This document shows, piece by piece, positions 2,047-28,500 of a stretch of 64,000 bases of DNA. The notes beneath the pieces were generated by a model. The model was not told the origin of the DNA. It saw only the letters and a list, made by a program, of their open reading frames with translations, and made no database searches. Location of the stretch: contig NC_079487.1 of assembly GCF_020520425.1 (NCBI RefSeq), positions 128,052,385 through 128,116,384 of the forward strand, read 5' to 3'. Within the stretch, counting starts at the first letter, position 1, and each line of letters opens with the position of its first letter. The position numbers and the translations under genes were made by a program. The DNA is from Spinacia oleracea (Eukaryota > Streptophyta > Magnoliopsida > Caryophyllales > Amaranthaceae).

Positions 2047-5000
2047 TTATAGATAGCTGCTGTGGATACCACCAGAAGTCCGACTTGTAAGAGATGGTCT
2101 CATTGTCACTATAGTAGATTTATCAGCTCCGGCTCTAATAGCTGCTTTCCCAGCTTCTAGAAACCGATGTACTGCATCCTCTGCATACTGATTGGCTTCG
2201 TTCACCGTCATGTTTTTGCCAATGTCCGGGTAAGTATTAAGAACATGGTCACCATTAAGTTGTGAAGCAAGTTGTACCATTTCTATTTGAAATTCTGAAA
2301 GTTTTGCATCTTCTCTTGGTCCAAATGGCCTTAGTGATCTCTTGACCTCTGGCAGTTTCTCTGTTTCAGAGATCCACATATAATATAAAAGTTTAAAACA
2401 ACATTAATAGACACTCGTAACAAAAAATCGTGACAGCAGTTGCAGGGCCAACAACAAAATCTCAGGTTTCTGAAGTGTATAAAAAGCTGATATGAGGATA
2501 TGAAGGAAAGAACACGTTCAGCGCCCATATTTTAAGATCCTAGATAACAACCACAGGAAAGACGTAATGATAGAGGTTATGCAGTGAAAATAGAACCAAA
2601 ACACATATGGTAAAATGCAAAAAAAGCTATGTCATTATGCTCAATTTTTGTTAAGAATGCATGGTGCAGCTTATGTAGCACCACGTAAGTACTAGAGACA
2701 GCAGGTACTAAGGACTACTTGAACTTCATGGTAATATATTGTACAAACATAATGCTTTTGACCAGAGAGGAAATTAAAAGGAAATCAACAATAATAACCT
2801 GGACAATCTTCACGTGGAGTGTCACGCAAGTAGAAGTACTTCTCAAAGCTTCCAGCCCAGGCATCTCGTTTAGTAAGGTAGTCAGATTTTAAGTTGAAAA
2901 GTCTCTTTACAGTAGCAGGAATGGAGGAATGTTCAAATTGTGAGGTTGGTGTAGGTCCATCTGGCTTGCCGATCACTGCAGCAACCCATAAAGAACAAAT
3001 AATTTCTTCATTATGCCATCTTAAAAGAAAAGTTAAAAAATTAAGCCACTAATTGAAGAAGATTCCACTGTATAAGCAAGCTACAATTATTCATCCCCAC
3101 AATGTTCCATATCATATGTCCAACAACCCTGTTTAAATTGCCAAATTCACACAAGACCTAATCTGGACTACAACAAAATTACGACAATCCTAGCTAAGAA
3201 ACTCATGCCACTTATCGTGCAGGGAGAAATAACCCCGATTCTAGATGCTTCTCACTAAGATACTAATGCAACTCCTCCAAAAATAACGACAGTCAACAAG
3301 TACTCCATAGCTATTATGCCAAGAAGAAATACAATAAAATCCACACCCCCCCCCCCCCCCCCCCCTTTAAATCCACACATCTTATTCTGCCATTCTACAG
3401 ACCACGGGGCATGGGATGGAACTTGAAAATATCAGGCACTAAGGGACCCTATTCAGGTGACTAGGTGAGGCACTCCTTAAGTCACTAAGCATGATTGAAT
3501 TAGGCTGAACATCACCCATTTCAGTTCAGAACTTTTGTAAAAAGTTTAAACTTCTTGTTGCAATTTTTTCTGCTGCACCATAGTTTATTCCTCTTTCCAT
3601 CTAATCCAAAGCCCATGAACTGTAGGGAAACCCTCTGAAAAAATGTACACTTGAGCTCAATGTAACTCTTACTCATAGCTGACAACTTGTATACCACTTG
3701 AACTTCTCTAACCTTAATGTCCGGTTTACTAAGTTGTACTTATGGCAGCAATGGTAATGAGTTCATAAGTGATTTTGCAAAGAAATTCTCATCACTCCCA
3801 ATCTCCTATGACAATGTCCATCATAATGCTTCTCCACTTCCAAGTATGTGTTATTCTTCAGGAGTTTCAAATACATGTAAAGAAAACATACTTCTGGATG
3901 AATTGAATAATTACTATGGACCTAGGAATGTACAGTCCTTGCAACAATACATTATCATTACCACCGCTTCAAACCAACTTTCAAACAAACTGTAATAAGA
4001 ATCAGGGTTATGACTTATGAGCACCAAGAAATCTTTAAGGCTTGAGCAGTAAACCAAAACTCTTAATCACAAACTAACTTCCTTACTTCAGTGTGAGACT
4101 CTGAATCTAATGTTAAGTTGGCAGCAGAAAAGAGACAAGACATACAAGTAAACAGCAAGACCACTTCGGAATTATACTTTCTCTATAGCATTAACGAGCA
4201 GGTAGTTCGTCCGATATATAATGACTAAGCACTAGGTACCACTTTCCGCAGAAGGGGGATATCAAGTAATGTACAACAGCATAGCTTACACAACAGCATA
4301 GCTTACATTAGAAAAAAGTTTTTTTCTTTAGGTACAACAAATCCCCTGGCTGCCCTCTATCAGGGCCCATCCAAAAGGCCCAACTGCATAATATGAAGTA
4401 CTTCCCTCCCCTCACTCCTTGACATGACCCTGGAATCCAGGGTGTGCTACCACCTTAGCTACACCACTCCCTCTTATAAAGCTTCTATAGGAATTGCCTC
4501 AGACAATTATACTATCAACTTTGTATGCCTGAGCCATTAAAGAAGAGTTGCTGGCTAAAATTACAGCATTCATTCTGATCAATTGCAGGTTTAGGATTGA
4601 CCTGAATGAGTTTAATCAATTACAGATGCAACCATCATTAATCAACAGTTTCCAGGTTATCTTTAACTTATTTTGGCTAGAATATCAACCTAATAGCATA
4701 TAGGTTGTATACCGTACAAAGCTTGTTCGGATTTGTGAATGCAACTTCAACCAACTACCTTCATGAACCCTTACAATAACAACCATCACCAATTTGCTCA
4801 GCAATTCACTTAATAGCACAAGTACAAAATAACATAATACATGGAGTAAGTGATAAAAGAAAAAAATCATGAAAATCAACTAGCACAATTGTTTACGGAT
4901 TGCGGTCATACAATAGCGCAAATGCTTGCACTTAACATGCACATATAAATTTATATGCACTAGAAGATCTGCTAAATCAGTCCCAATAAATTATACAGCA

Positions 5001-6349
5001 TATCCCAAATTAGTGCCTCTTAAATTTATCAAAGATTCCAAGTTCAACACATTGTAGTATGACAGGATTGACCCCATTACTAATATTCCAAGATCCCAAA
5101 TTAGTGCCTCTTAAATCTATCAAAGATTCCAAAGTAATTTCACTAAGATTATCATAGTGTGGAGTATAAAACAAACTCAATCATTAACAAAACAACAAAA
5201 AATACAAAAACTAGTCAAACATCAAAATCCACCAAAAATCAAAACAGAACAAGAAGACTCACCAGTGCCCTTATCAATCCAAGGCGAAATAAGCAAAGTC
5301 GGAACCCGAACTCCCAACCGATCAAACCGAAAGTAAAACGGGAAGGGTCCAACGATTCCATCAGGGCTAGGAACCCCAGAAACAGGGGTAGGAACATGAT
5401 CATAAAACCCACCATGTTCATCATAAGTTATCAACAAAGCCATTTCTTTCCACTGTGGGCTAGCCCTCAGTGTCTCATACACCTCCTTCACAAACCTCTG
5501 TCCTTCCGCCACGTCATGTGATGGATGATCATCATTAGCAGGAAACAAATTCTTATCAAAGTACCTTTGCTCAATCACCACATAATTAGGCAATTTACCA
5601 AGTTTAGCATGCAATTTAAACTTCAAAGTATAGCTATGAAACTTAGTTACATGCTTAACTCTCCTTAAACTCTTGAAAAACATGGTTGCAGGGATATTCT
5701 GGTAATAAATCCCAAAACTAAGCCCATTTTCATCAAGTGAGTCAAAGATTGTTTTTTGAGGAAACCCATGAATTAGATCTTTCCTTACATTGCTTGACGC
5801 CCCATGTGAGGTAGCTGAGTGGACATAGAAACGATTTGGCTGAGTCGACGCTGGAACTGAAGCGAACCACCGGTCCATCACGGCGAACTCATTTGCTAAC
5901 TCGGTGTAAACCGGAACAAGCTCCGGCTTAAAACCGCTCATTACGTTTTCCGGCATGTGGGGCGACATTGAATTAGCTTGTTGGGCGAACCCATTCATGG
6001 GGGCTGGGTCAGTTACTTGGGTCGACCCGAATATCTGTTCAGTGATGGCTTGAATTGAATGACCCGGGTCCGAGTCAATAAAAACCGCACCATCTGAGAC
6101 GTGAATTTGGGGTGAGTTTGGGTCGGAGGAATTGAGCCGGTTGAATTCTTTCCCGGTTACTCCATCGATGTCGGGTCGGGTTGATTTAAGCCATCCTAAA
6201 ATATGGTCGAAAGAGCGATTTTCCATGACTAAAACGACCACGGTTTTAACGGGTGATTTAATCTCGGGTTTACGGTGAGGAAAAGGGAAGGCCATAGAGT
6301 GAGGAGTGAAAAGAAAGAGGAGGAGGAGAGAGAGAGTTGGAAGAGACAT
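2047..6349 (-). CDS. NPC1: Non-specific phospholipase C, NPC1-like (3 exons)
   Basis: The enzyme hydrolyses phospholipids such as phosphatidylcholine to diacylglycerol. Exons on the minus strand are 5263-6349, 2799-2975 and 2047-2360, joined at GT-AG introns that keep phase (KGTG/V and CPG/E junctions), for 525 aa; Arabidopsis NPC1 is about 533. The ATG at 6349 gives a signal-peptide-like start ([14 protein letters not shown]). The phosphoesterase domain (PF04185 type) shows [11 protein letters not shown] at residues 43-53, then [20 protein letters not shown] and [15 protein letters not shown]. The last exon has the plant NPC tail with [12 protein letters not shown] and [14 protein letters not shown]. 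Intron 1 is long (2,287 bp) and holds a 20-nt poly-C run at 3346-3365. The gypsy element at 6544 begins 194 bp upstream of the start codon. NPC1 rather than NPC2 or NPC6 is inferred from remembered similarity. Confidence 0.93.
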
Positions 6350-6543
6350 TTTTCCCGGTGAACGGCGGAAATGTGGGGGGAAGTGAAGAAGGTGGGTGGT
6401 GGTGGGCGGTGGTGGAATATGCTTTTCTAGAACACCATTTTGGATGCTTTTTTGGAGAAAGTTAAAGTTAAATGAATAGTTAGTTTTGACTAATATATTT
6501 GGTTGATTAATCAAACAAAAGTTAAATAGAAACACGCCATTGT

Positions 6544-6971
6544 TGTTGTTTGGGCTCCCAATTGATTCTCAATTGGGCCACTAAGTCCAAAGCCCAATGG
6601 CTCTAAACAACAACATCAAACTTACCAATGGCTATTCAGCCATCCATTAAGGCCCAAGGCCCAATAACAATAAGTGACCTATGGGCATTTATTATGCAAA
6701 CACTATAAATAGGCCGCCAAGGCTCACACCTCAAGGTACGTCCAATTTACCGCCTTAAGACTACTCTTCTAGAGAACTTCTCTCTAGAATCCGAGCATCA
6801 TTCTTACTTAGGCATCGGAGGGGCTTTCCTCGGAAACACCCCCGAGGCTAGTGACTTTGCTCTTGTGCAGGTGAATCCGGACTCCACTCATTCAAACAAG
6901 CAAGATCTTCATCACATACAAAAGGGCCTTCATTCGAAGCCCATTGTTTCCATCTTTACAACACCGGAACA
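6544..6971 (+). repeat. 5' LTR of the Tat gypsy element
   Basis: This is the 428-bp left long terminal repeat. A TATA-like box (CACTATAAATAGG) lies at about 6701-6713, pointing into the element and away from the neighbouring NPC gene. By eye its sequence matches the right LTR base for base. Confidence 0.95.
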
Positions 6972-7041
6972 ATTTGGCGCCGTCTGTGGGGAAGAACACT
7001 TCAAAGCCTTTGAAAGACATCAATCACCTCTTTCCGCGAAA

Positions 7042-10000
7042 ATGGTGAACGATGTTGTTAACAACAAAGACGACGATATGATGGTGCGGTCAGATTCAGA
7101 ATCTGACCAAGAGGGGCACCCTCAATCGATGGCGAGGTCACAGCCAAGCAGAGCTACGACCGCCACAAATGCAGGACCTCCGATTCCAACTAGGGAAGAG
7201 CTCACTGCGGCCATGACCATCATGCAAAACTTCCTCTTCAATGAGAAGCAGCAAGGGCTGGCAAACGACCGCAGAGAAGAGAGGAGGACCAGGCGAAGGC
7301 TGAACGAGCCACCCAGTGTGGAAGTGTCCAGACCCGAACGAGAACTCCTTCCCTTGACAGGTACACACTTGACGTCGAGGTGGATGGAAAGCACGTGGGA
7401 CACCCAAAAAAGGGCACAACAGCAACCAGATTGGTTTGCGAGACCATCGCCTACTCCAACAGCTCTCCAAAGCGAATCAACTACCCGTAACACTCGGATC
7501 CGAAGCTCGGTGCTCAGCAGGTTGAGACCCTCGGTCCATTCAAGGTTAAGACCTTCGATCCATACGAGACTCGGGGTAGGTGAGTCGAGCAGGTCTGGCG
7601 AACGACCCGAGGTCAGTAGCCGAGAAAGAAGAAGAGACAGGAGGCATGATCGAACCCCTAGCCCCCATCGTACGCCCGAACGTTCTAATCACAGAACCTC
7701 GGCAAACGAAGGCATCAGGGCTAGACTCGGGAAAAGAATCATGACTCCTACGTCATCCCCTTTCTCGGACGAGCTGATCATGGAAGAAATACCGAAAGTA
7801 AGACTGCCAGCGCACCTAACCTACAGCGGAATCACAGATCCGAGGGATCATGTCATCTCATACGAACAGCAAATGTTCTTGAGTCCCTACTCCGAAGCAT
7901 GTTGGTGTAAATACTTCCCAACCACGCTAACCGGAGTGGCGGGAGAGTGGTTTAGATCGCTGCCGAAGGGATCGATCAAGAGCTGGAAAAAGCTGAAAAA
8001 GAGATTCTGCACACAGTTCGTGAGCAACAATCGCCCCGAGCGAACCACAGCAGAACTGACCTCAATCCAACAAGAAAGAGACGAAAGTCTGAGAGAATTC
8101 ATGGCCAGATTCATGAAAGAATCAACAAACATACCAAACTTGCAGCCAGACGTGGCCATCTTCGCCTTGAAGCACGCGCTCCAGGAAGGGAAGTTCCGTG
8201 ACGAACTCTCAATGAAGAACCCCTCCAAAATAGCTGACGTGCTCCAAATGGCCGATGCGTTCATCAGAACCGAAGAGTTCAACAAGGCCGCTGCAAAATT
8301 GAAGGGATCGTCAGATCCGAGAGACACAAAGAATAACCAGAGCAGGCCCGAGGGCGGCTCAAGGAAAGGGAAAGAGAAAGTAGGAGCTAGAGAGATGAGC
8401 CCGAAGAAAGACGGGAGAAGGGGTGAACTTCAACCCAAATACACCAACTACACTCCACTAACTCTGCCCCGAAAAGAGATATTTAGCCTCAACAGAAATG
8501 ATGAAAAGTGGAAACTACCGGGGAAGCTCAAGTCCAACCCAGCTCGGAGAAACAAGAACAAGTGGTGCGAGTTCCATGATGACTTCGGTCACCATACCGA
8601 AGAGTGCAACTCGCTGAAAGATAACATTGAAGACCTCGTTCGCCGAGGCTACCTGAAACAGTACTTGTTAGACCGAAGGGAGGAAAAAGAAAAGGCCGCA
8701 AGCGGCAAACAACACGAGCAACCCCAGAAAAGGGTCTACGAAGCAACAGGGCACAAGAAAAATGACATCCTAGTGGTGTTCGGGGGACAGAAGTCTGGCC
8801 AGGCCAGCAAAAAACACCTAAGAGCCCTCTCCCATCGGGTCAACTTCAGCGCGGTTGGAGACAACCAACCACACCCCCCGAACATGACCTTCACTGCTGA
8901 TGATTGCTTCGGAGTCCAGTACAAACATGACGATCCTTTGGTCATTTCCATGGACCTCAACAATCACAACGTACATCGAGTGTTAGTCGACGGAGGAAGT
9001 GCCGTCAACATCATCTTCAGAAACTGCTTCGAGCAGCTGATCCTCGAAGAACCAGAGGAAGCACTGACGAAAGTCAGTTATCCTCTGATCGGATTCAACG
9101 GATCCGCAGCTATCCCTCGAGGAAAGATCACCCTGCCAGTCACAGTGGGCGAAGGCCAGGCAGCAAAAACCCTTCGGGACGAATTCTTGGTGATGGACTG
9201 CGACTCCGTATACAACGTAATCATGGGGAGAACCATGATTCACAAGATGCAAGCAGTCCCCTCCACATACCACCAGCTGATGATATACGTCTCGGATGCA
9301 GGATTCGCCGAACGAATCAGAGGTGATCAAGAAGTGGCGAGAAGAACCTGCCACACTGCTGTCCGAAAGCCCAAACTGGGGGACGGCCCCGAGGAGGAAA
9401 AAGGAGCTACGGGAGAGGAAAGCGAGGCAAAAAGGAGAAGAGCAAGCACGAGCAGCTTGTCTCCCGCGGAAGTTGATGCTCGCCCCGAAACCCTATCCCC
9501 CGAACCGGATCAAGAAATGGAGGATATCTTCCTCGAAGATGATTCAGACAGGAGCGTCCGAATAGGCAAGGGCCTAAGCTCGGGGCTCCGAATCGATTTG
9601 ATCCGGTTACTCAGGGATCATAAAGACATCTTTGCATGGTCAGCAGCAGATATGCCAGGGATAAATCCGAAGCTGATTTGTCACAAGCTGGATGTCAACG
9701 CTGAAGCTCGGCCAATCAAGCAAAAAAAGAGAAATTACTCCTCGGAGAAAAACAAAGCCATCGCCGAGGAGGTTAAAAAGTTGCAAGAGGCCGGATTCAT
9801 CGAACCATGCATGTATCCGAAGTGGCTGGCCAACGTGGTGATGGTCAAGAAAGCGAACGGCTCATGGCGAATGTGCGTAGATTTCACAGATCTGAACCGA
9901 GCCTGCCCCAAAGACTGCTATCCCCTGCCAAGGATAGATCAACTGGTTGACTCCACCAGCGGCCATGCACTGCTCAGCTTCATGGATGCCTTTTCAGGCT

Positions 10001-12795
10001 ACCACCAAGTATTCATGCACCCCGATGACAGGGCAAAGACAGCGTTCATCACAAGCGCAGGAGTGTTCAACTACAAAATGATGCCTTTCGGCTTGAAAAA
10101 TGCCGGAGCCACCTACCAGAGGTTAGTTGACCACGTCTTCGCCGACCAGAAAGGGAGGAATGTGGAGGTCTACGTGGATGACTCCATCGTAAAAAGCATC
10201 AAGGAGGAAGACCATGTCAAAGATTTGGCAGAGACCTTCGGAAACCTGAGGAAATACAGCATGAAGCTGAACCCAAAAAAATGCGTCTTCGGGGTGAAGT
10301 CAGGGAAGTTCCTCGGATTCATGGTGAGCGAAAGAGGAATTGATGCGAACCCAGACAAAGTCCAAGCGGCATTGGATTTACCCGAGCCGAAGACCAAGAG
10401 AGATGTGCAGAGGCTAACCGGCAGGTTAGCCGCACTAACAAGGTTCATATCAAAAGCCTCGGACAAGGGAGCCCCCTTCTTCAAGGCACTGAAACCAAAG
10501 AGCCTCCCCGGAGGAGAAGCAGAACCAGTCAAGAAAAAGGGGGTCCCGAGGAAAGTGGATCCCGAACTGATATGGGAACAGGAGCAAAAAGAAGCTTTTC
10601 AGCAACTCAGAGCCCACCTAGCTCAACTGCCGACACTGGCCAGACCAAAGGAGGGGGAAACCCTGTACCTATATGTCGCAGTTAGCCCTGGAACCGTCAG
10701 CGCAGTGCTTCTTCGGGAAGAAGAAAAGAAGCAACAGCCAATCTACTTCACCAGCCGAACACTCACAGGGGCCGAAACCCGGTACCCACTCATCGAGAAA
10801 GTCGCATATGCAGTAGTGGTAGCTGCACGAAAACTGAGGCCATACTTCGACTCCCACCAGATCACAGTGCTAACCGACCAACCGCTCGAAAAAGTACTCG
10901 ACAAAATAGAGAGGTCAGGAAGATTGGCTGCCTGGGCCTTCGAACTATCAGAGTTCGGCATCAAATATCAGCCGAGGACAGCAATCAAAGCACAAGCATT
11001 GGCAGACTTCTTGGCCGAATGCTCATACCAGGAAATGTTGGATGATACGAAAAGCACTTGGGAGGTCTTCACTGACGGATCTTCCACAATAAACGGCTCA
11101 GGGGCAGGAGTTGTACTGATCCCCCCGACGGGGAAAAGCATAGAGTATGCATTGAAGTTCGGCTTCAAAGCAACCAACAACGAGGCCGAATACGAGGCCG
11201 CAATCGCAGGGATAGAGCTTTGTTTATCCCTGGAGGCCGAACATGTTCGCCTCAAAACTGATTCCCAGCTTGTAGCCAACCAGATCCGAGGGGAGTATGA
11301 GGCCAAATGGCCCAGCATGACAGCCTATTTAGCAAAGATTAAATCCTTAACGTCAAAGTTAAGATCCTTTGAAGTCATCCTCATTCCCCGAGGACAGAAC
11401 ACGCAAGCAGACGCACTGTCAAAACTCGCAAGCTCGACACTCATCGACCTAAACAGGTCGGTCCACGTGGAAGTTCACCAGGAGAGAAGCATCGACTTGC
11501 TACCCACCACAGTATGCAGCTTACGTACCGAACCTAGCTGGATGGACGCAGTAGTTGCATACAAAGAAAGGGGAGAACTTCCTGAAGATAAGCTGCAAGC
11601 GAGAAAACTGAAAAGATTCAACAGATGGTTCATCATCAGCGCCGAAGGAGAGCTCATGAGGAAATCATTCTCTGCTCCGCTGCTAAAATGTGTGGGTCCA
11701 ACAGACGCTGACTACATCCTAAGGGAAATCCACCTCGGGATATGCGGAAACCACATTGGAGGTAGGACATTAGCACATAAAGCCCTTCGGGCTGGGTACT
11801 GGTGGCCCACTATGGTTTCCGAGGCAAAGCAGATGGCAAGGAAATGCGAGAAATGCCAAAAGTTCGCACCAGCCATCCATCAACCAGCTCAAACCCTACA
11901 ATCAACACTGTATCCCTTACCATTCGCACAGTGGGGGTTAGACATCATTGGTCCCTTCCCCTCAGCGACGAACCAGAAGAAGTGGTTGATTGTAGGAGTC
12001 GACTATTTTAGCAAATGGATCGAAGCCGAAGCTGTCTCCTCCATCACCGAACCTCAGGTCCGCAAGTTCATATGGCAGAACATCATCACAAGGTTCGGCA
12101 TACCAAGACTGATGGTCTTCGACCACGGGAAACAGTTCGACAACACCCCGTTGCAAAAGTGGTGCAAACAGTTCGGCATACACCTAGCGTACTCGGCAGT
12201 CTGCCACCCACAAAGCAACGGGCAAGCCGAAGCCGCTAACAAACTCATCCTCAACGCACTCAAGAAAAGAGTCGAGGATGACAAAAACAAATGGTTAGAA
12301 GAGCTACCCGGAACGCTATGGTCCCTTCGGACCACTGAAAAAGAAGCTACCGGACAAACACCGTTCCACCTTGTATACGGATCCGAAGCTGTAATTCCTG
12401 TGGAAATCGGAACAGAAAGCCTGAGGATCCAGGCATACAACAGGTATGATGGGCTCCAAGGAGAAAGCAACAACCAGCTTCTATCCGAAGCTCTCGATCT
12501 ACTGGATGAAGCTCGGAACGATGCAAGGACACTCAACGCAGCCTATTTGCAGAGGGTCAACAAGCATTACAACCGAAGAGTCAACGCCAGACCCCTAAAA
12601 GTCGGTGATCTAGTACTCAGAAACGCCGCCTCGGTTCAGAAAGGACGGATCCATGGCAAACTCTCAGCCACTTGGGAAGGACCATACATCATCCATTCCG
12701 AAAAAAGGCCAGGCACGTATATGCTGAAACAGTTAGATGGAACAATCCTGAAGAACCATTGGAATACCGATGTTCTCAAGAAATATTTTGTATGA
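7042..12795 (+). CDS. Gag-Pol polyprotein frame of the Tat gypsy element
   Basis: One continuous frame of about 1,917 codons from the ATG at 7042; upstream in-frame sequence reaches back into the LTR, so the true start is uncertain. Parts in order: gag with a retrotransposon-gag region (about 7800-8320); a Cys/His-containing stretch (about 8560-8620); an aspartic-protease-like region (about 8930-9240); reverse transcriptase (about 9800-10400) with YVDD at about 10171; a first RNase H (about 10600-10970); a second, plant-type RNase H (about 11060-11440) with FTDGSS and NNEAEYEA; and integrase (about 11730-12400) with an HHCC-like zinc region and the GLDIIGPFP core. A second RNase H is a known trait of the Tat clade. 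It is treated here as a fossil virus-like element. Confidence 0.93.
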   Translation: MVNDVVNNKDDDMMVRSDSESDQEGHPQSMARSQPSRATTATNAGPPIPTREELTAAMTIMQNFLFNEKQQGLANDRREERRTRRRLNEPPSVEVSRPERELLPLTGTHLTSRWMESTWDTQKRAQQQPDWFARPSPTPTALQSESTTRNTRIRSSVLSRLRPSVHSRLRPSIHTRLGVGESSRSGERPEVSSRERRRDRRHDRTPSPHRTPERSNHRTSANEGIRARLGKRIMTPTSSPFSDELIMEEIPKVRLPAHLTYSGITDPRDHVISYEQQMFLSPYSEACWCKYFPTTLTGVAGEWFRSLPKGSIKSWKKLKKRFCTQFVSNNRPERTTAELTSIQQERDESLREFMARFMKESTNIPNLQPDVAIFALKHALQEGKFRDELSMKNPSKIADVLQMADAFIRTEEFNKAAAKLKGSSDPRDTKNNQSRPEGGSRKGKEKVGAREMSPKKDGRRGELQPKYTNYTPLTLPRKEIFSLNRNDEKWKLPGKLKSNPARRNKNKWCEFHDDFGHHTEECNSLKDNIEDLVRRGYLKQYLLDRREEKEKAASGKQHEQPQKRVYEATGHKKNDILVVFGGQKSGQASKKHLRALSHRVNFSAVGDNQPHPPNMTFTADDCFGVQYKHDDPLVISMDLNNHNVHRVLVDGGSAVNIIFRNCFEQLILEEPEEALTKVSYPLIGFNGSAAIPRGKITLPVTVGEGQAAKTLRDEFLVMDCDSVYNVIMGRTMIHKMQAVPSTYHQLMIYVSDAGFAERIRGDQEVARRTCHTAVRKPKLGDGPEEEKGATGEESEAKRRRASTSSLSPAEVDARPETLSPEPDQEMEDIFLEDDSDRSVRIGKGLSSGLRIDLIRLLRDHKDIFAWSAADMPGINPKLICHKLDVNAEARPIKQKKRNYSSEKNKAIAEEVKKLQEAGFIEPCMYPKWLANVVMVKKANGSWRMCVDFTDLNRACPKDCYPLPRIDQLVDSTSGHALLSFMDAFSGYHQVFMHPDDRAKTAFITSAGVFNYKMMPFGLKNAGATYQRLVDHVFADQKGRNVEVYVDDSIVKSIKEEDHVKDLAETFGNLRKYSMKLNPKKCVFGVKSGKFLGFMVSERGIDANPDKVQAALDLPEPKTKRDVQRLTGRLAALTRFISKASDKGAPFFKALKPKSLPGGEAEPVKKKGVPRKVDPELIWEQEQKEAFQQLRAHLAQLPTLARPKEGETLYLYVAVSPGTVSAVLLREEEKKQQPIYFTSRTLTGAETRYPLIEKVAYAVVVAARKLRPYFDSHQITVLTDQPLEKVLDKIERSGRLAAWAFELSEFGIKYQPRTAIKAQALADFLAECSYQEMLDDTKSTWEVFTDGSSTINGSGAGVVLIPPTGKSIEYALKFGFKATNNEAEYEAAIAGIELCLSLEAEHVRLKTDSQLVANQIRGEYEAKWPSMTAYLAKIKSLTSKLRSFEVILIPRGQNTQADALSKLASSTLIDLNRSVHVEVHQERSIDLLPTTVCSLRTEPSWMDAVVAYKERGELPEDKLQARKLKRFNRWFIISAEGELMRKSFSAPLLKCVGPTDADYILREIHLGICGNHIGGRTLAHKALRAGYWWPTMVSEAKQMARKCEKCQKFAPAIHQPAQTLQSTLYPLPFAQWGLDIIGPFPSATNQKKWLIVGVDYFSKWIEAEAVSSITEPQVRKFIWQNIITRFGIPRLMVFDHGKQFDNTPLQKWCKQFGIHLAYSAVCHPQSNGQAEAANKLILNALKKRVEDDKNKWLEELPGTLWSLRTTEKEATGQTPFHLVYGSEAVIPVEIGTESLRIQAYNRYDGLQGESNNQLLSEALDLLDEARNDARTLNAAYLQRVNKHYNRRVNARPLKVGDLVLRNAASVQKGRIHGKLSATWEGPYIIHSEKRPGTYMLKQLDGTILKNHWNTDVLKKYFV

Positions 12796-13159
12796 TCTCT
12801 GTCTGTAAACCAAGTAAGTTGTTTAATGAGAAGAGGAAAGCCATTGGCACCATGTGTTTCATTAAACTTATCTCTACATTTATTGTCCCTTTATATATAT
12901 ATGCAGCCTCGGATCTGATCAATCCGAGACTAAAAACAGGTTGACTTTGCCCATTCCTTGATAAAATGCAAGAAATGACCAAATCATACACTTCGGGGAA
13001 CCGTCCAGAATCCTCGGATTCGCGGTACCCTAATAAAATTTGTTCGCAACAAACAGTCGCTCGAATCAAGTTATAAAACTCCGGCTCAGATCCACGGATC
13101 GCCGAAGGCATAACTAAAGAGGCAGACTAGCGATCTCTTGCCCAGGTTTCCGAACCACA

Positions 13160-13560
13160 AGAGATCGGAAGAACAATCCAAACCTCTGAGCAGATCGACG
13201 GATTTGAAGAGTCTGGAAACTAAAGAGTCTCTTAGCAGATCTACGGATTTGAAGAACTCGCAAAACTAAAGAGTCTCTTAGCAGATCTACGGATTTGAAG
13301 AACTCGCAAAACTAAAGAGTCTCTTAGCAGATCTACGGATTTGAAGAACTCACAAAGTCAAAGAGTCTCTTAGCAGATCTACGGATTTGAAGAACTCACA
13401 AAGTCAAAGAGTCTCTTAGCAGATCTACGGATTTGAAGAACTCGCAAAAGTTAAAAAGTCTCTTAACAGATCTACGGATTTAAAGAGCTCGCAAGATCAA
13501 AAGGTTTTTAGCAAGTCTACAGAAAGAGGAGCTCGAGAAATCTACGGATTTAAAGACCTA
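13160..13560. repeat. Tandem repeat array, 46-bp unit, inside the gypsy element
   Basis: A unit beginning GCAGATCTACGGATTTGAAG recurs with start points 13235, 13281, 13327, 13373 and 13419, an exact 46-bp period. Looser copies extend on both sides. The array sits between the end of pol and the antisense open segments. Tat and Ogre elements are known to carry variable tandem repeats in this 3' region, and these can seed satellite DNA. Confidence 0.9.
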
Positions 13561-13851
13561 AAAATTGCGAAAGAACAAGTTGAAAAGAAGCAGCCAAGTA
13601 ACAAACATTCATTTTTTATTCAATATTTGGGGGAAGTACAAATACATCGAAAACCTCAAAAATTGAAAACAAAATGAAACAAGTTAAAATCGGCAGCCAT
13701 CAACAGACAATACCGGCCTACCGAAGTACTAAAGAAAGCAAAAAGAAATGAGTACAACGCAGCGCCGAGGCAAAAGGGGGAAAAGCAAGCACATATTCGG
13801 AAGTCCTCAACTGGAACCGACCGACTCTGAAGAAGACGACTGCCCGAATCC

Positions 13852-16800
13852 CTAACTCTTGGGAGTCTCAGGAGCGGCCCCTAGGGGAGCATCCTTCGAA
13901 GAACCCCCAGCAGTGGTATCACCTTCGGAAGTTGCCTTCTGGGCCCGAGCCTCTGCAAGAGCAGCTTGGCGTTCAGCTTCAGCTTCATCTCGATCAGCTT
14001 GGCATTCCACCAAGTGGTCCTCGGCCTGCATCCATAGAGGAACTTTCTCGTTCCAAGGGAAGTGAGGCATGTGCTTCGCAAACATGCGCCGAGCACCCAG
14101 GATGCCGTTCCAGTACTGCTCTCTACACTGATCAGCAGTGTAGAGGTTGACTCGCTCCTGCTCCAGCTTCCGAATATAGTCATCCTTTTCCCGAAGCTGC
14201 AGCCGAAGGACAGGCACCTTATCAGCTTGCTGCTGGATCAGCTCCCGATGCTGGACAAAATGGTGGAGCCTTAACTCCGCCTCTTTACGCTCCTTGTCGG
14301 CCGCTTCAAATTTAGACTTCATCTCCTGGAAGAGTCTATCTTTTTCCTCAAGTTCGCTAGCGAACTTAGCGGCCATATCCTTCTTCTCCTCAGCAAAGGA
14401 AGCGATCTTCTCAGCATCCTCTTCAACTCGGAAGATGAGCTGGCCAACCTCGGTCCCGATCTTCTCAGCAGACTCTCTAGCCTCGCGACTATAGTGAAGG
14501 TACAGCTGCTTGAGTTCCGTAAGCTCGGAGAGGAGTTGCCCAGCCTTCTGGTCCAAAATGGGAATATCACGAGCATAAGCCTCACGATATTTCCTCAGTT
14601 GTTTCTCCTCAACCGAGCTACACTCGGAAGCGAACGAAGACCAGAAAACAGCCTGGGAACGAGAGAAAGATGAGCAAAATAGGAAAAACATAAAACAAAA
14701 ACACAACTCAAAGAGAAAAATCTAGCAAATTACCTCGTTCAGATAGTACTGGGCCATCATTGCCGGATTCCTCTCTTCGGCCCCAGGAACCCTCCACTGC
14801 GGGTTAGCACGAAGCAGATTCTCCCGAGCAGCCTCGGGGCCCACCAAGGATCCCACGTGAGCCAAGGGGTCCTCTCCCAAAATCGGAGCCCTGGCATATC
14901 GAGCCATCGCCTCCCTTACTTCTTCGGGGATCCGTTTTAGCGGAACATCCGAACAGGGATCAGCATGGATCAGCCTATCCAGGGCCGAGGTAGAAGTAGA
15001 ACCCAAAGTTGAGTGGCGCCTCTTCCTCGTCAAACCTTGCTCGGGCTGCTCCTCCTCTCCAGCAGAGGGAACCTCCTTCTGAACCTCGGGGACCGCAGCT
15101 TCGGGGCCCGAGAGATCTATCATCTCCTTGTCTGGACTCTTCTCCCTCTCGAAGGGAAGATCAGCAGACTCCTTCTTCTCCCCAGCTACCTCAGGGACAT
15201 CCGAACCAGGAACAAAATCGGCTTCAATCGCCTCCATCACCTCGGTGATATCCTGGATTTCGATCCCCAAAGCAGCAGATGGTTTAAGAGGAGAAGGGAT
15301 GATATCTTCCTCGATCAGCGGCTGATCCACGGCCGGCGGTTCAGCAACCACCACACTCTTTAACTTCTGCCCTGGCAAGGGCATGAAGTGAAGAAGATTC
15401 TTAGGAGGAGGCATGACTTCCGAAACCGCTTCCTGCATAGCAAGCGTACAAAGATTAGTTTCCGAAAAGGGGAGAAACGAACTACAACAACTCCAAGTCA
15501 GAACAAATACCTTCTCCGAGGGCTGAGAAGCCTTCGCTTTCTTCGGATGCGTGGAAGGCCTCAAAAGAGTGCTACCCTTCCTTTTGCGTTGATCCTAAAA
15601 AGGGGAGACCAAGGGTCAACGAATGTAAAAGAAGAAAAAGGAAGAAATAGAGAAAAAAGCGGGAAATACCCGGTTCCTAGATAAAGAGATATCTATCCGA
15701 GCCGGAGATGAAACCGAAGGAACGGCACGCGGCACAGCGTCAGTCCCAGGACCCTAAAAAGATGGTCCAGGACCAAGACGTTAGCCGACGGCCAACCGAA
15801 AAGAAAAAGATAGACAGAAAATCGAGCCTATAAATGAACACTCACCGGATCCGAAGTTGTCTTCAACTCAGGAAGCACAACCTTCACAGGAACAGCTTCA
15901 ACAGAAGAGGCGGAATCCCACGGATCAGCTCGAACTTCGGATATCCGAGCAACCCCCAAAGGAGACAACACGTAATCCTTCAGACGAGGATTACGAGGGT
16001 TATCTTTTCCGAACTTGTACTCGGGAGCCGGGTCGTGAATAGTCTTCAAATCCAAAGAAATGCCCAACTTCTTAGGATCAATGCAGCTAAAGCCGTACTC
16101 TGCAAAAACAAAGCACAAAACATGTCAGCAAAACGAAACAGGAAAGAGGACAAACTCACTGAAAAAACGGTCTCAGCCGAAAGACACCTACCCCTGTCAA
16201 AAATCCTGCTGAGACCGGCAACAGCAAGAATGTCCTCCCTCAGAATGTAATTGAGATTCGGGAGCCAGCTAGACGGCAGTCGGTGGTTATCCTCTTGAGC
16301 CAAGAACCACTGGAGGAGGTCCACATAGTGGCGATGGTTCCGATCTGGAGCTGCCACACCCCTCATATCAGGATCAGGAGCCACGAACCACTTCGGAGGA
16401 CGATAAAAGTTGGGATGCTTCGGATCCGTCGGCACACGGACGAGCAACCACTCCGTCTTCCAATTGTGGTCAGAGCTAAGGTAGGGGTACGCCGTGATGT
16501 AGTTCGGATCCCCCCTCTTTCGGGACTTCTTGTTGACAATGGTCCACCAACCATACCCATCACCCTTGGAAGCATGGTTGAGAACCAGATCGTGAAGATC
16601 CCGAAAAATAGCGACAGAGCAAGGGAAATTGACGAAGTCACACACCCATCTAAATCCGATTATGTGCCTCATAGATTTGGGTGTGAGCTGGGCCAAACTA
16701 ATGTTGTACGACACCAAAAGCTCGGATACGAACGGATCCAAAGGAAAGCGGAGACCATTCTCCAAATGGTGAGTATACACGGAAATGAACCCCCTCGGTG

Positions 16801-17239
16801 GATGAGTCACCCGAGGACGCTCTTGTTCAGGAAGCTCGCACCAGTACCCCAAGGCATGCTGAATTCCGTATAGCTCCTCGGCCTTCCGATGATAATTCCC
16901 TAACTTCGCTTCCACCAACCAGTCACCGCTGACCGATTTCTCCAACGGACCGTCGATCTGCGTGGTCTCATGCAAAATTGAGGCATACTTGCCCTTCGGA
17001 TCAGCTTCCGACCAATGAACTGGAAACTCGGAGTAACGACGACGAACACCCGAAAAGCCAGCTCTCTCACCAGAGGTTGCGCGTTCATCTTCGGAAGCAT
17101 CCCAACCAATCGAACTCTTCTCCAACGGCCTCTCCGAAGGTCGACCCCTCGAAGATTTCGGTAACCTCCCCGAAGGCACGTTCTCTCTCTCACTAGAGGA
17201 GCCAACAACGAACTTGCTTTTGCCCCTATTCTTTGCCAT
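13852..17239 (-). other. Antisense open segments of the Tat element (extra ORF region)
   Basis: Several open segments run opposite to gag-pol. The longest starts at the ATG at 17239 and resembles the plant protein family described as 'putative gypsy type transposon' (PF04195 type). Segments at lower coordinates are acidic and rich in predicted coiled coil (for example 13852-14640, with many Glu, Lys and Leu). Short gaps with GT- and AG-like borders separate them, which fits the spliced antisense gene known in Grande and Retand relatives. The function of this antisense protein is unknown. It is part of the element and not a host gene. Confidence 0.75.
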
Positions 17240-17677
17240 GGTCGCGAAATCTCGATCTAGGGTTTAGATTGAGGGGTAGAAGGAAGAACGAAGAAAAAAG
17301 GAGAACTCAGAAACAAATTACCTTTTTCCGAAGCGGAATTCGCCGATAAAGCGAACAACACAAGTTCCCGAAGTCTAAAGTTGGCCGAATTTCGTAGATC
17401 TGAAGAAGCAAATTGCACTGCGATCGCCGGAATTTAGAGAGAGAATGGGTTTGAAATAAGGAGTAAAAAGTTTAAAAGGAGCAAAGCACCCAGTATTTAT
17501 AGAAAAGAGAAAGGGCGCATCAACTTCCTCAAACCCACGATCTCCATGACACAGTACAATTCCCAACACTTGTCATCAATGCAAATCATCCCTTTTCAAA
17601 AAAGAGAGGGAACTTTCGGACTTCTGACAGCTGGAAACCCACCCATTTAATTCTAAATGGACCGGGTCTGGGGGGCA

Positions 17678-18105
17678 TGTTGTTTGGGCTCCCAATTGAT
17701 TCTCAATTGGGCCACTAAGTCCAAAGCCCAATGGCTCTAAACAACAACATCAAACTTACCAATGGCTATTCAGCCATCCATTAAGGCCCAAGGCCCAATA
17801 ACAATAAGTGACCTATGGGCATTTATTATGCAAACACTATAAATAGGCCGCCAAGGCTCACACCTCAAGGTACGTCCAATTTACCGCCTTAAGACTACTC
17901 TTCTAGAGAACTTCTCTCTAGAATCCGAGCATCATTCTTACTTAGGCATCGGAGGGGCTTTCCTCGGAAACACCCCCGAGGCTAGTGACTTTGCTCTTGT
18001 GCAGGTGAATCCGGACTCCACTCATTCAAACAAGCAAGATCTTCATCACATACAAAAGGGCCTTCATTCGAAGCCCATTGTTTCCATCTTTACAACACCG
18101 GAACA
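17678..18105 (+). repeat. 3' LTR of the Tat gypsy element
   Basis: This is the 428-bp right long terminal repeat, read as identical to the left copy. It is preceded by a G-rich polypurine tract and followed by GTTGT, which matches the left flank ATTGT at four of five bases. Confidence 0.95.
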
Positions 18106-18679
18106 GTTGTTATTGTTATGACTTTTATATGTTGAAGTGATAGTGACATCTCAGACCTGAATGAATGGATAACTGGATGTATACGTATGGAGTATATCAA
18201 AGAGACACTTTTCATGTCGTGATGTTTAGTCAAAAACTCAATAATTTCCCGGAATTTGATTTGAAAAGTGGTTGGTTAAGGACTTAAATATTATGATTAA
18301 CTCTCGTCTGGTCGTCTACATCATTTTCTGATTAAGAGATGACAAAATTAATAGAGTACTCCATATTTGTTGACATTTTATTAGTAATGCTCGTGTACAA
18401 CATTGAGCCACATTTTCACCAAAAAAGTAATAATAAAATTGATCCACATTATCACTTTAAAGAGTTGAAATGGCCAATCAATGATGGTGGGAAAATCATA
18501 AATGGAATATTCTACTTGTAAAACAAATTATTCAAAATATGCGTACAATAAAAATACGTTAAAAATGAAAGAAATGAGAAAGAGATACGTACAAGGGAAG
18601 AGACTGGGATATGAGGATGTTGTCATGTTGGGATGAAAATACTACTCTGTAAACAACAGTACTACTTGCAAATTGTAAC
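18106..18679. other. Intergenic: former upstream region of NPC
   Basis: This AT-rich stretch was, before the gypsy insertion, contiguous with the DNA just upstream of the NPC gene, and so may hold displaced promoter elements of that gene. No coding region or repeat was recognised. Confidence 0.5.
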
Positions 18680-18681
18680 TA

Positions 18682-18968
18682 CTCCCTCCGTCTCTTTTTG
18701 TTTTTTACGTTTGGTGTTTTTCACGCGTTTTAACGAATAATTAATTTGCATTGAAATCCCTCAATTTTTTTATTTAAACGAGATAAATTACGTTTATTTA
18801 TATTGTTTTCACTTTTATCAAAATTCTGATATAGGGAAATGAGAAAAAATTAATGTCCCAATGGAAAAGTGTGAGAGAGTAAATGACCCAATGAATTTGA
18901 TTGGTTAAAAAGAACATTCTAAAATACCCAAAAAGGAAAACGTAAAAAACAAAAAGAGACGGAGGGAG
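18682..18968. mobile_element. Stowaway-like MITE (Tc1/mariner type)
   Basis: A 287-bp non-autonomous DNA element with terminal inverted repeats. The left end reads CTCCCTCCGTCTCTTTTTGT and the right end is its reverse complement; both continue with matching bases inward. It is flanked by TA on both sides, the Stowaway target duplication. It carries no coding sequence. Confidence 0.92.
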
Positions 18969-19275
18969 TAGTATTTAGGCTCGGGCGATGCCCCGGGTTA
19001 ATATACGAATACAAATTTTAAATAAATTCAATACTCCATAATTATTAAATTGCCATTTATTATGTTTTGTTATGAAAAGATGACATATAATTTGATTTGG
19101 ATTAGTGGTTAATTGTTTGGTTTACAAATTAGAGGTCACGGGTTCAAGACTTGTACCACACATATTTATCATTTTTAAATAATTGTGTACGACATGAAAC
19201 ATTGAAGTGAGATTAGTGTGAGTGCCACGTGGCACATAGGCTTGCTTATCAACGCCTTTTAATATATAGTATAGA
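18969..19275 (-). mobile_element. Helitron-like non-autonomous element (family B)
   Basis: On the minus strand the sequence begins TCTATACTATATATTAAAAG after an A, typical of plant Helitron 5' ends. It finishes with a GC-rich inverted motif (CCCGGGGCATCGCCCGAG) followed by CTAA. It carries a perfect 14-bp palindrome GTGCCACGTGGCAC at 19222-19235, which contains a G-box. It abuts the Stowaway element. The 3' boundary is uncertain. Confidence 0.6.
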
Positions 19276-19507
19276 TAGATTCCTTTGTTTGAATTATACA
19301 AAGTATGTCACAAGCATAGCATCATGATCGTAATTTCTTGTCACACTCACATTACTAGTTCAAATTACACCACAAAAGTGACAAAGAATATCTCCTGTCA
19401 AATATTTGAATGAAGAAAACAAGAGTTCATTTCTTAAACTAATGGATGCCTTAGTAGAATATACCAGCCTTCAGTTATCTAATTATCAGGACAGTTGCGT
19501 ACTTGCA

Positions 19508-22500
19508 TTAGAAAAGATTAAGGGAGATCTTTAGTTTGTTCTGCCTCCATTTCGGTAGAGCGTAGAAGGCTCGTGTTGTCATGCCAAACTTCTCCAGGAA
19601 CTCCGCCTTGGACAAGTATGCCTAAAAATCATCAAGACCGAACTATGAGAACTATGAACAGTAAATGAATATGAATTGTTATCCTGCACATAAATGAAGC
19701 ATTTTCAAACATTTACAAATTTATCTTGTTTGAACTTTAATATATGATCATGGTACAACTAAAGAAAATAGGGTTTGGGTCCATGTGTTCGTGGACTTTT
19801 TTTATTTGCTTTTTTTAGTCTTGAGATTTTTTTGTTGGTGTGGGTGGAAGGAGGGAAGAAGGTAAGGTGTTCTTCAGTTTAAAAACCCTTAAGAAGGCAG
19901 AAACAAAGTGATCATGGACCTCTTTCTGAAACTTGATTGAATATGTGCAATTCTCAGTGCCTGTGTGAATAAAATTACCTCACGCTTGGTCAGATCTATG
20001 TCTGAAACTGGTTCATCAGAAGTCAGCGTTAAGCGTTCATAAGGATATTTTAACAAATTAGCATCATCATCATCATCATTTTCAGCTACCAGTGATAAAT
20101 CAGCACCATCAGCAGGATTTCTTGATTCCAGTTTATGGAAATCTGCAAACATGCATACCCATGATGTGAGAAATTCAAAACGAGGATACACATTGAAAAT
20201 TTGATAATAGCAGAGAACCAATTTGACAAAACCCTTGATGTCTCATACCTAATGCTTGATAAAACAGAGCTGATTTCAATGACAATTTTAGGATTTCCTA
20301 CTTACCAACAGTACTGCTGTGGTTCACGGGTTGTTCTGATAAAAGTTTCTTAGCAATTGCAGTTGAAGAAGCTAATTGCGATCCTGAAAGTGATGGAGAT
20401 GCACTTCTTGGCATTCCAGTAGAACTTACAGATTTGCTTCTTGAACCACTTTGGTAATATTCCGAGGAATATGTCCTGCTTGAGTTCCTTGGAGGTGTCT
20501 ACACAAAGGACACATTTTAGAAGCATAAACTAACTGTTCTTGGGCTTCAAAATAATAATTAAAATGATATAACTTATGCATGATCATAGCCAGACTCTTT
20601 AGGGATAATCAATCTGAAAGATGTGTACTTGCCTCCAACTTCTTTTCTCCCCTTAGTAATGCAAGCTTTCTCTCAAATGAATTTCCATCCATCTGAAAGA
20701 GGGGACACAAAGTAGAATTGTCATATGCAATACAAGTAAATGTTAGTTTTGTATCTTCAACTCATCTTCGATGACTACAGAAACTGCAGTAGAACACTAA
20801 TAGTACTTCAGTCTGGCACATTCCGTGTTAGCAAAATACAAAAGTTTTGTATCAATTGTACTTCAAGTTGCACGATCAGTGAGATGACAACAAATAGTAC
20901 ACAAGAACCATACAAAGGCATAGAATATTTCCTTACATGTGATTTTGAAACATCCCAATCAAAAAAGCAAGTAAAGAACTCTGGTTCATGTCTCTCTGTA
21001 ACCATATACAATGGGGTTTCCAACGATAGTCCTTGAGCCAAAATGTCTCCCTCCAGGTATTTCTGGAATTTTTAATACAAGATGAAAGCAATATCAGTGA
21101 ATTATAGGTTAGACTGGAAATAAATAAAATCATGTGAACTCATGATCCCATAACTTGCACGTGTAGTCACGAAGAAAATTTTTCTGTTTTCATGAAGAGT
21201 GCTTGACCAATAAACCAAGAAAGCCCAATAAGCATATTTTAAGCACAGTCTAAAGGTTGAGGAGCTTCTGAAATTTTGATTGTAGTTTAGTGACATTCAA
21301 GACTAATCTAGTCAAGAGATACCTTTACTGATGCTAAACGTGTTCAAGTCTGTATGCCTCAGCCTCAATATCTTGGTCCTTCAAAGAGTTACAGTGATAA
21401 ACTTACATGGGTTTCTAGACTTTCTACAGCTGGTTAGTCTAGAGTTATAGATTAGACCAAAAGAGAATGCAGACAATTGGGAAGAAAATATGAGCAAGAA
21501 GTCAAGAACCATGAAGGTCTCTTGAAACATAACAATAGTAGTGGTTTGAAAAACGACACAACATTGGCAAACTCACTAAGTAGGATTTGGACGCGTCAAA
21601 GAAAAATGAGTTTCAATGGTGGAATGGTAAGTGAGGCTTCATATATCAGGATAAAGACGACGTGTACCGTCAAAAAAAAAAACAGAAGAACTGGAATACA
21701 AATTAGTATTATTACCAGGCCAAATTGTATTGTTTGTAGATTTGGTTGGACATTTGACTGGGAACCTAGCCAAACATAAATTTCAGTGTAGCAGTCTAGA
21801 ATGAAGACATCCTCAGTAGTTAAATCATCTTGTGTAAAGCTGAATATTTCTTTCACCTGGAAACACAGGCAATAAATAGTGACTTGCAAACTAATCATGT
21901 CACACAACAAAATTAAATGTAAGTACTACTACATTTTATATTGACTTGAAAACTACATTTCAGAAATGCTTCATCAACTCTAAGCACAAACAACGTTTTA
22001 GGCATGGAACTGATTTCCATCTTTTGTTAAATGAATGGAGGTCCCAGACTGGCAAACATGTGCGATTTGGGGGGAAACACTTCTAATCAGACGTAAACAC
22101 ATCTTATCATAAACAGAATGCTAAAACTTCTACAAAGAAGATAACAGTTCCCATTGTTTTGCATAAAGAACATGATTATAAAATGTCCTGCAGGGCCTGA
22201 CCGGCCTGTGCAGGCTGCAGCTAGCTTAGCTGCAAAGAGAAAGTTAAAAGTTTCCAGACCAAGGAATTACAGGTATCGCAGATTGTTGATGGAAATCAAG
22301 GTAGTACCTAAACAGCAGTGCCCACTCCTCTGAAGTCAGAACGGAAAAAAGGCCAATAATTTACATATTCGATCCAGATTCGTACCCTCAAGGTAGATTA
22401 TTTTTCTCTTCCAGTAATTCAAGCAAGAGATTTATTTTTATTTTTATTTTTTGTGGGGGTGGGAGGGTTAGCCAAGGTTTATTGCCACCTTGGTTTTTGT

Positions 22501-25500: not shown

Positions 25501-28500
25501 TAGAATCTTAGTCTTCATGAGTGAGATGTGAAGCACAAGCAATAAGAAAAAGAATTGAAGAATGGGAGAACGCACAAGAAATCTTACCAAAACCGGCGTT
25601 CCTTTTGTTGATTTAGCCATATTGATAATATGGGAGATTGCATCTACTCTATCTTCCTGCACCGAAGAATGACGATGGCTTATTGTTTCAGGATGTGGAT
25701 CATAAAACTAAATAACAGAAGGCACAGTAAATATTTCTTTCTGCGTAACTCAACTATATCAAAGACAGCTCCAAGGAAGAATTAAGAACTTCTGCAAAAG
25801 ATGTAGTCTTGAACCACAGCCCAATGTATATTGCCAGAATGGGAGTTTGTCAAAGTGGATACTAGCAGTTGCATAATAAACGGCGATACAAAAGACCAAA
25901 CAACATTTAGATAATTCCAACATCATATCATATGGGTGCGAATAGAGGCATAGGAGTATGAAATTTTTAATGCTGCGAATTAAGTACTCAGCACTGTCTT
26001 ATGGAGCAAGAATCCTTTTATGCATCCCTTTATACTAAACAATCTTAATAGGAATATAGCCTTTACCTTGATGCTTGCAGTGCCAAGCCAAGCATACAAT
26101 ATGCTTTCATCCCTTTGACTACTTTGATATGTATACTTCACAATATGACAGTCCCCACTGAAAAGCTTTATATCTCCCTCAGAAGGCATGATAGACAGAT
26201 GATCACCATTTACCCCCCAGACCTGATCCATTGAAATTGCTCGACATAAGAATACTTAATCTATAACAGACCCATAATTGTCAAAACATAGAACTTCGAT
26301 ACTTCAAGCTTTCCCCTGCAATTAATCAATGGTTGGCAATATTCTTCCGGAAGCTCCTTTATATTATAACCTTGTTGCTTGAATATTGCTGGAAAAAGAA
26401 AGGCACGAAGATCATCAACCCATTTGAAAATAGTTTCTTTCTTGATTCAATTTCATTCACAATTACCTGCTACTTTCCCTTTGCCTTCTTCATAAAGTTT
26501 GGGGTTATCTGTTTGAGGCCAGCCAACAAAGTTTGACTTAAATTTGGGAGTTTCTGAACCTTCTGTCAAGACCATTACAAGGCTCCTAGTTGACCTGCCT
26601 TGGGATCTGAGGAAATCCTGGAAATGATCAGGAAAACAATGATAGGGATTCGGAAACAACAGGAATATTTGCAAATGTAATAGAGTTTTATGAGCCGCTT
26701 TAATATCCTCATTGTCAGAAGACTAAGACCACCACAAAAATCTTGATAATTCTTGTACCAATTAAAAGTTTGCACAAAAGGTTTTGCTGGTGGGAATTGT
26801 GGAAAGAACAAGGACAAAACTGATAGTCTGATTTAATGATTTAAAGTAGAAGTCAAAGCTCTGGATGTACATATTAATGAAAGAAGAGTAGAAGAGACAT
26901 GAAAAGGGCACTTTTGTGATGGAAATGCGAGCATAACGTAAGGCGGAAAGGAAGGTTTTCTTACTTCCGTTGCAGTTATTGATGTCTTGCGCTCTGAGAT
27001 TGAAGTACACCGTCCCATCCAAACATATACCTCTGCATCACAGTCCAAAATGTAGCACTTTTCTCTATCTAGCATTTCTCTACTAAATGTACCACTGGAA
27101 GTTTCACATAGTTTACCCTGGATAGTTATCCTGTTAAAACAAGAACCTTGAAACATTGAGTTTTTCAAATTACAGAACCAAGTAGAGGATAAGGGATAGC
27201 AAGGGATTTCAGATACAATGGAGAAGGGGAGACACATTGATGTTTAAGCAAACAGCAAATAATTGGCAGTAATTTCTTGCAGCTCTTAGAAATCTTATTC
27301 TTGCAGTGTCAAATGATAATGTTTTACAGAATCTATTAATAAATAAGAACGCAACAACAGGAACGCTTCTGAGAGATTTGATAATAAAATGAAACCATAA
27401 GGACAAATTACTAAGATTCGCAAAAACAACTTACAAAAATAATTTCACAAAGGGAACATCATGTTGTTTCTTGAAAAATGAAGATGAGTCACGAGGAATA
27501 GGAGCATAACCCCCAAAAATACTCCAAAACTCCCCTGCATCTGAATCACCAACAAACTTTCCATCCTCTGAAAGAAGGAGAACAGAATATATAAATAAAT
27601 ATATAAACCAACTTCAAAAGCATACAGCTATCAAGCAACAATGAGGAAATCAATCAACTAGGTTGGGCTACATTGGTTGTTGTTCATCAAAGCAGAAAAA
27701 CCAGTCAAAGCACAAAAAGCTTCAACAAATATTCGTGCTTGATGATAATAAATACAGAAATCATGACGGGAAAAAGAGAACCAAATTAAGTACCTATTGT
27801 AGCCACCTGGCATTTCCCACCATGCTTTTCTTCCTTAATATACTTGATGACCTCTAAAGCCTTAGCTCTTTCTTGTATGCTCGAGTTGTGACCACTAAAG
27901 AGATATACTTTTGATTCCGTGTCTAGGATAAAAACATCATCATGGTTCAAAGATGACCGTGAAAAAGGCACCTAAACCAGTACGTGTCACAAGTCACAAC
28001 GTTTCACCGTCAGCATTGTTACTGAAGGGACCAAACACTGAAAATAGCAAATAATCTTACCCAAACCAACACAGCAGAAGTTAATGTCTTAACTTTAAAG
28101 GGAGAAGCTAAATACAATTCAATACTACCGAAAGCTACGCTGCTAGAGAGTGAAGTGAGCATTCAATTCACTAAAAGATGCTAGCATTTCCTTATTTGCA
28201 CAGGCAAACCAATAGAAATTGATATAGAGCTTAGATAATCTGATCATTTAATTGAACTAAACATTGATATTCTAGTGAAAACAACTCAAAATTACAGAGA
28301 GCTAGGAAATGAGGTAAGCAGTAGCATAATCACTAAAGACTGATAGTGCTTCATTTAATGAAAAAGTAAGAATTGAATTTAACTTTTAGGAAATGTCAAT
28401 AATTGAATGAACTAATAACCACCATTGAGATCCTAGAATTTGTGATAAAAAAAAAACCAAATGATTCTTAGACAAATATAGTAGTGTGGTTCATAATTCA

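Follow-up and report, generated by a model that had tools for sequence, protein, structure and literature searches.

A young Retand retrotransposon probably separates a spinach non-specific phospholipase C gene from its TATA box

The window analyzed here, a 64,000-nucleotide stretch of the spinach (Spinacia oleracea) genome (C1:128,052,385-128,116,384), contains a gene for a plant non-specific phospholipase C (NPC) and, directly upstream of it, a complete long terminal repeat (LTR) retrotransposon of 11,559 bp (positions 6547-18105 of the window) that we assign to Retand. Structural variation in crops commonly stems from young retrotransposon insertions beside genes, and in this case the element most likely landed within the core promoter of its neighbor. 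The genome searched for related sequences comprises 894,210,420 bases in 242 contigs, with C1 to C6 accounting for 879.2 Mb. The gene, the ends of the element and the two halves of the interrupted upstream region are arranged as follows:

2047-6349, minus strand: NPC gene, three exons placed by eye (6349-5263, 2975-2799 and 2360-2047), about 525 amino acids, identified by Pfam and a structure match
6350-6546, minus strand: the 197 bp of original upstream sequence retained by NPC, containing no TATAWAW
6542-6546: left target-site duplication, GTTGT, 5 bp, an exact match to the right copy
6547-6971, plus strand: 5' LTR, 425 bp, TG...CA, identical to the 3' LTR
6704-6711, plus strand: TATAAATA in the 5' LTR, predicted promoter of the element, facing away from NPC
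17681-18105, plus strand: 3' LTR, 425 bp
18106-18110: right target-site duplication, GTTGT
18111-19530, minus strand: displaced NPC upstream or intergenic region, its right limit approximate and set by eye
18123-18129, minus strand: TATAAAA, candidate NPC TATA box on the displaced side, at -216 relative to the ATG once the flanks are joined

The NPC reading frame, with its start codon at 6349-6347 on the minus strand, encodes a phosphoesterase (PF04185, E 1.8e-101), and the best solved relative of the first-exon frame is annotated as ‘Non-specific phospholipase C4’ (8hav, E 5.1e-138). By both domain content and similarity, the host gene is a plant non-specific phospholipase C. Its coding exons, bounded by putative splice sites, look intact by eye, and the protein appears to begin with a hydrophobic leader, a feature that in Arabidopsis sets NPC1, 2 and 6 apart from NPC3-5 (PMC7862535). 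A genome search returned 16 NPC matches including the window's own, the others lying on C2, C4 and C5 (some with stops), with a fragment on C6 and two weak matches on C1; some NPC redundancy is therefore likely. The retained NPC leader also contains a short out-of-frame upstream open reading frame (ORF) identified by eye (6511-6540, minus strand; nine codons in all including the ATG, then a stop), which would be part of the transcript only with an NPC start at the insertion point or farther upstream.

The element's two LTRs are 425 bp long, and the repeats are spaced 11,134 bp apart. A first-pass annotation of this DNA had described two identical LTRs of 428 bp, starting at 6544. The identity stands: when the 425-bp LTRs are aligned, a check which that annotation itself had proposed, they show no difference. 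The length is 3 bp too great, because the TGT of the target-site duplication (6544-6546) happens to equal the three bases preceding the 3' LTR. We compared the window copy with nine sibling copies, defined as those with both LTRs among the best 40 LTR matches of 1703 first-look candidates and thus a non-random set chosen by LTR likeness. In all ten copies, the sequence ...GGGGGGCATGT, which ends in CATGT, directly precedes the 3' LTR, and the TGT at 6544-6546 is a chance match to its last bases. In the eight siblings having an exact target-site duplication, the 5' LTR begins directly at TGTTTGGG, and none of them carries TGT before it. We therefore rejected the 428-bp reading: the extra TGT belongs to the duplication, which is exact once the boundary is corrected, and the distance from the NPC ATG becomes 197 bp (6350-6546) in place of the 194 bp given earlier. 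No second, empty copy of the insertion site was found in the genome, where a query of the joined 300-nt flanks matched nothing but its own two halves, both at this locus.

Several lines of evidence date the insertion. Each of the ten copies has an identical LTR pair, and nine of the ten have an exact 5-bp target-site duplication. Assuming 1.3e-8 substitutions per site per year, a borrowed average rate (PMC6337768), zero differences over 425-bp LTRs place the insertion at less than 0.27 million years (271 thousand years, ky; one-sided 95%). Counting substitutions private to the window copy gives a tighter figure: in 10,517 internal columns, each covered by at least six of the nine siblings (including C5:12.2, which lacks a target-site duplication), only two such substitutions occur. 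With 850 LTR bases added, this corresponds to an age of about 13.5 ky (95% range 1.6-49 ky at the same rate), an upper limit about fivefold lower than that from the LTR pair (49 vs 271 ky). This estimate leans toward too old an age, because assembly and reverse-transcription errors are counted in and because a variant taken as private could also occur in siblings outside the sample. When 121 bp around each private site served as the query, none of the 39 other scored copies matched fully in either case (best 40 of 815 and best 40 of 452 candidates, respectively). The nearest sibling, C6:3050773-3061984, which is missing about 390 bp of pol within the integrase part, differs from the window copy at five internal positions, corresponding to 20 ky (range 6-46 ky); this comparison leaves out the piece containing the tandem array (12972-13471), which holds nine of the 14 mismatches, and does not count the 2-bp gap and the two mismatches that adjoin the deletion in C6.

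Two points qualify this age estimate: private site 12204 falls in the stretch deleted from the C6 sibling and so is uncheckable against that copy, and the calculation uses a borrowed rate together with siblings selected for LTR similarity. Overall, the insertion probably took place within the last 50,000 years. The earlier description of it as very recent is thereby placed on better evidence, since LTR identity alone gives only the limit of 0.27 million years. Given few private substitutions and an age of about 14 ky, presence/absence polymorphism among accessions is likely, an expectation drawn from a single genome's data, and the element is unlikely to be present at this site in all relatives.

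Revisiting the NPC upstream region with the two flanks joined, we listed TATAWAW motifs in the 420 bp preceding the ATG and found only one, the TATAAAA at -216; farther out, two more lie on the NPC strand at 18802 and 19268. The insertion point, at -197, follows the first T of TATAAAA by 19 bp, and the box now lies more than 11 kb from NPC. This agrees with the first-pass statement that the original upstream sequence was moved by about 11.6 kb, and specifies that the displaced side carries the sole proximal consensus TATA box. In Arabidopsis, the TATA box lies on average 31.7 nt ahead of the start site (PMC554773); because the spinach box is at -216, this spacing would place the NPC start site about 184 bp ahead of the ATG, close to the insertion and on the gene side of it. 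With the sole proximal TATA box displaced and the predicted start site on the gene side, the element would lie inside the NPC core promoter. This position is somewhat unusual: 36 of 2000 dinucleotide shuffles placed a TATAWAW 15-45 bp upstream of the insertion point.

We consider it probable that a recent Retand insertion between the TATA box and start site of NPC has weakened or shifted NPC expression, with no take-over by the LTR. In the mechanism we propose, the element would have been inserted by its ordinary integrase, as is general for LTR elements, producing the 5-bp target-site duplication. The landing point, 197 bp upstream of the ATG, would most likely fall between TATA box and start site, and transcription of NPC from the remaining 197 bp would be weakened or shifted. 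DNA methylation is known in plants to spread from silenced LTRs, and such spreading could strengthen the effect.

Several observations weigh against this interpretation. The shuffle test was devised after the site had been seen, and the NPC start site is a prediction. At about 184 nt, the predicted leader exceeds the mean of 108 nt for TATA genes, and only about 29% of Arabidopsis promoters contain a TATA box (PMC554773). Moreover, two weaker AT-rich boxes remain attached to the gene, TATTTAA at -179 and TATATTA at -148. These retained boxes also favor the foremost alternative, in which the NPC promoter is TATA-less or uses a weak box within the remaining 197 bp and the insertion changes little. 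By eye, the NPC leader is rich in pyrimidines and the coding exons seem intact, and about 71% of Arabidopsis promoters are without the TATA motif (PMC554773), all of which would fit such a neutral neighbor. On the other hand, the displaced side holds the sole consensus TATA box in the 420 bp ahead of the ATG, at a distance that fits, and other upstream elements have in any case been moved 11.6 kb away. We regard a neutral insertion as quite possible and distinctly less probable than a disrupted core promoter.

The first-pass annotation had also raised the idea that NPC is now driven by element sequence; this could come about if the 5' LTR were active in the antisense direction, or by read-through from the promoter of an antisense gene. 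Two minus-strand features inside the element bear on this idea:

16046-17239, minus strand: antisense ORF, 397 amino acids, with a TRP28/Transposase_28 domain (PF04195, E 1.1e-10), the nearest to the 3' LTR of three antisense ORFs
17494-17501, minus strand: TATAAATA, possible promoter of the antisense TRP28 gene, pointing toward NPC from 11 kb away

Antisense transcription from an internal promoter is described for maize Grande, and the antisense ORFs of Silene Retand are weakly expressed (PMC7264820); in the window copy, the minus-strand TATAAATA at 17501 precedes the TRP28 ORF by about 260 bp. Against this, the TATA boxes of both LTRs (6704 and, for the matching TATAAATA of the 3' LTR, 17838) are on the plus strand and NPC is on the minus strand, which led us to reject the LTR promoter as the main driver of NPC. 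The only other minus-strand TATAWAW motifs in the element are three within an AT repeat at 12897-12901, so that the box at 17501 would require read-through of about 11 kb. An element-driven NPC thus seems improbable, and because the LTR promoter points away from the gene, reduced or shifted NPC expression is the likelier outcome. That the element was misplaced here during assembly is very unlikely: the genome has many near-identical copies (first-look candidates numbered 842 and 546, the best 40 being scored in each case) and assemblies fail at such repeats, but the target-site duplication is exact, each flank is found only at this locus, and the substitutions of the window copy were not seen in other scored copies.

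The interior of the element identifies its family. In addition to the LTRs and the TRP28 ORF, we identified the following features:

6975-6991, plus strand: putative primer binding site, TGGCGCCGTCTGTGGGG, 3 nt past the 5' LTR, the same sequence in all ten copies
7042-12795, plus strand: gag-pol, a single frame with its ATG at 7042 and stop at 12795, identified by Pfam domains
13184-13494: tandem array of a 46-bp unit, 6.8 copies
13852-14706, minus strand: antisense ORF, 284 amino acids, with no family reaching its cut-off
14722-15564, minus strand: antisense ORF, 280 amino acids, with no family found
17665-17675, plus strand: polypurine tract region, identified partly by eye, ending in GGGGGG and followed by CATGT and the 3' LTR

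Pfam matches in the gag-pol frame give the order Gag, reverse transcriptase (RT), RNase H (RH), a second RNase H and integrase (INT), with RT_RNaseH at ORF positions 1266-1364, RVT_3/RNase_H at 1399-1521 and the integrase zinc-binding domain from 1617. A second RNase H (aRH) is a mark of the Tat clade, lying between RH and INT in Ogre and Retand (PMC6317226). Because it occupies that position here, the Tat assignment made in the first pass holds. Retand is further marked by an antisense TRP28 gene and a long region between pol and the 3' LTR, often with tandem repeats (PMC11963269). In the window copy, 4,885 bp separate the pol stop from the 3' LTR and hold both the 46-bp array and the antisense TRP28 ORF; by these features, the element is Retand, of the Tat clade of Ty3/gypsy. 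Antisense ORFs between pol and the 3' LTR are likewise present in Retand of Silene latifolia and in maize Grande, which are different families (PMC7264820). Ogre, also of the Tat clade, shares the position of the second RNase H, but its prominent extra domain is a plant mobile domain (PMC6317226), where the window element instead has antisense TRP28.

A closer counterpart is the cluster ‘Spinacia oleracea 1’ in Table 1 of Vicient 2025 (PMC11963269), listed with 54 copies, an LTR of 425 bp, an internal region of 10,719 bp (10,709 bp here, agreeing within 2%), 4,850 bp from pol to the 3' LTR (4,885 bp here) and one tandem array. The row records GAG, AP, RH, INT and TRP28 as present, and the window copy shares with it Gag, RH, INT, antisense TRP28, the single array, and identical LTRs with a target-site duplication. 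A possible difference concerns the aspartic proteinase: the gag-pol frame of the window copy gave no Pfam match to a protease at E up to 0.1, and by eye contains a DGGS-type motif between Gag and RT. Because the lengths, domains and array agree with the table row, the window element is very probably a copy of this published family, matched on lengths, domains and array, and it may be one of the 54 published copies. Rfam and tRNA scans of the whole window gave no match.

The sibling copies show further variation within the family. The C6 sibling (target-site duplication GTCAC) is very recent despite its integrase-part deletion, and may have moved with the help of other copies or lost the stretch later. 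It interrupts an amino-acid transporter gene within an exon, the Aa_trans profile being matched at positions 18-97 directly to its left and at 99-259 directly to its right, making it a second recent gene insertion by the same sub-lineage. The length of the 46-bp array varies, with anchor distances of 361 to 591 bp over the nine siblings and 500 bp in the window copy; in the C6 sibling, the distance is one 46-bp unit longer than in the window copy. In the sibling C1:106.4, the LTRs are 99% similar and the 5' part is about as similar as that of the other siblings, but the 3' region is strongly diverged (460 of 575 mismatches fall in window positions 13972-17471). The copy may thus be a mosaic that carries a different TRP28 region. 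The C5 sibling without a target-site duplication (C5:12249543-12261148) has internal element sequence before its upstream LTR, a tandem or nested arrangement. A scan for gene preference found one host gene besides transposon domains in a small sample (10 of 33 flanking ORFs of at least 110 amino acids, plus one exon), the ORFs being drawn from six of 16 flanking 4-kb stretches.

Other features of the window lie beyond the insertion. Within the displaced NPC upstream region is an inverted repeat resembling a miniature inverted-repeat transposable element (18678-18972), with perfect 35-bp terminal inverted repeats. Farther along, a minus-strand gene with gelsolin repeats at 21596-21910 and 26833-27237, which we take to be of the villin type, has its 3' end facing the 3' LTR promoter, and read-out from this LTR could give antisense RNA to that gene. 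At 54044-58248 on the minus strand, three ORFs match PF01255 (cis-prenyltransferase type); because two of them resemble first exons, they probably represent two neighboring genes from a tandem duplication.

Overall, the insertion is ordinary in kind: the element, its structure and the type of event are already known, and what is added is a new instance at a specific locus. Among the papers listed on spinach insertion polymorphism and spinach NPC, titles and abstract openings neither name this locus nor report on a spinach NPC gene, and insertion near genes is not discussed in the abstract, Results and Discussion of PMC11963269. The locus offers a clean case that can be dated: a single junction, an element of known family, a gene that looks intact and an age on the order of 10,000 years. 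It also yields a directional prediction, namely less NPC expression or a shifted start, and not LTR-driven NPC. More tentatively, the core promoter may have been cut recently enough for the alleles with and without the element still to be segregating in spinach, in which case the insertion would constitute a natural on/off or methylation-controlled allele of NPC, a gene of phospholipid signaling.

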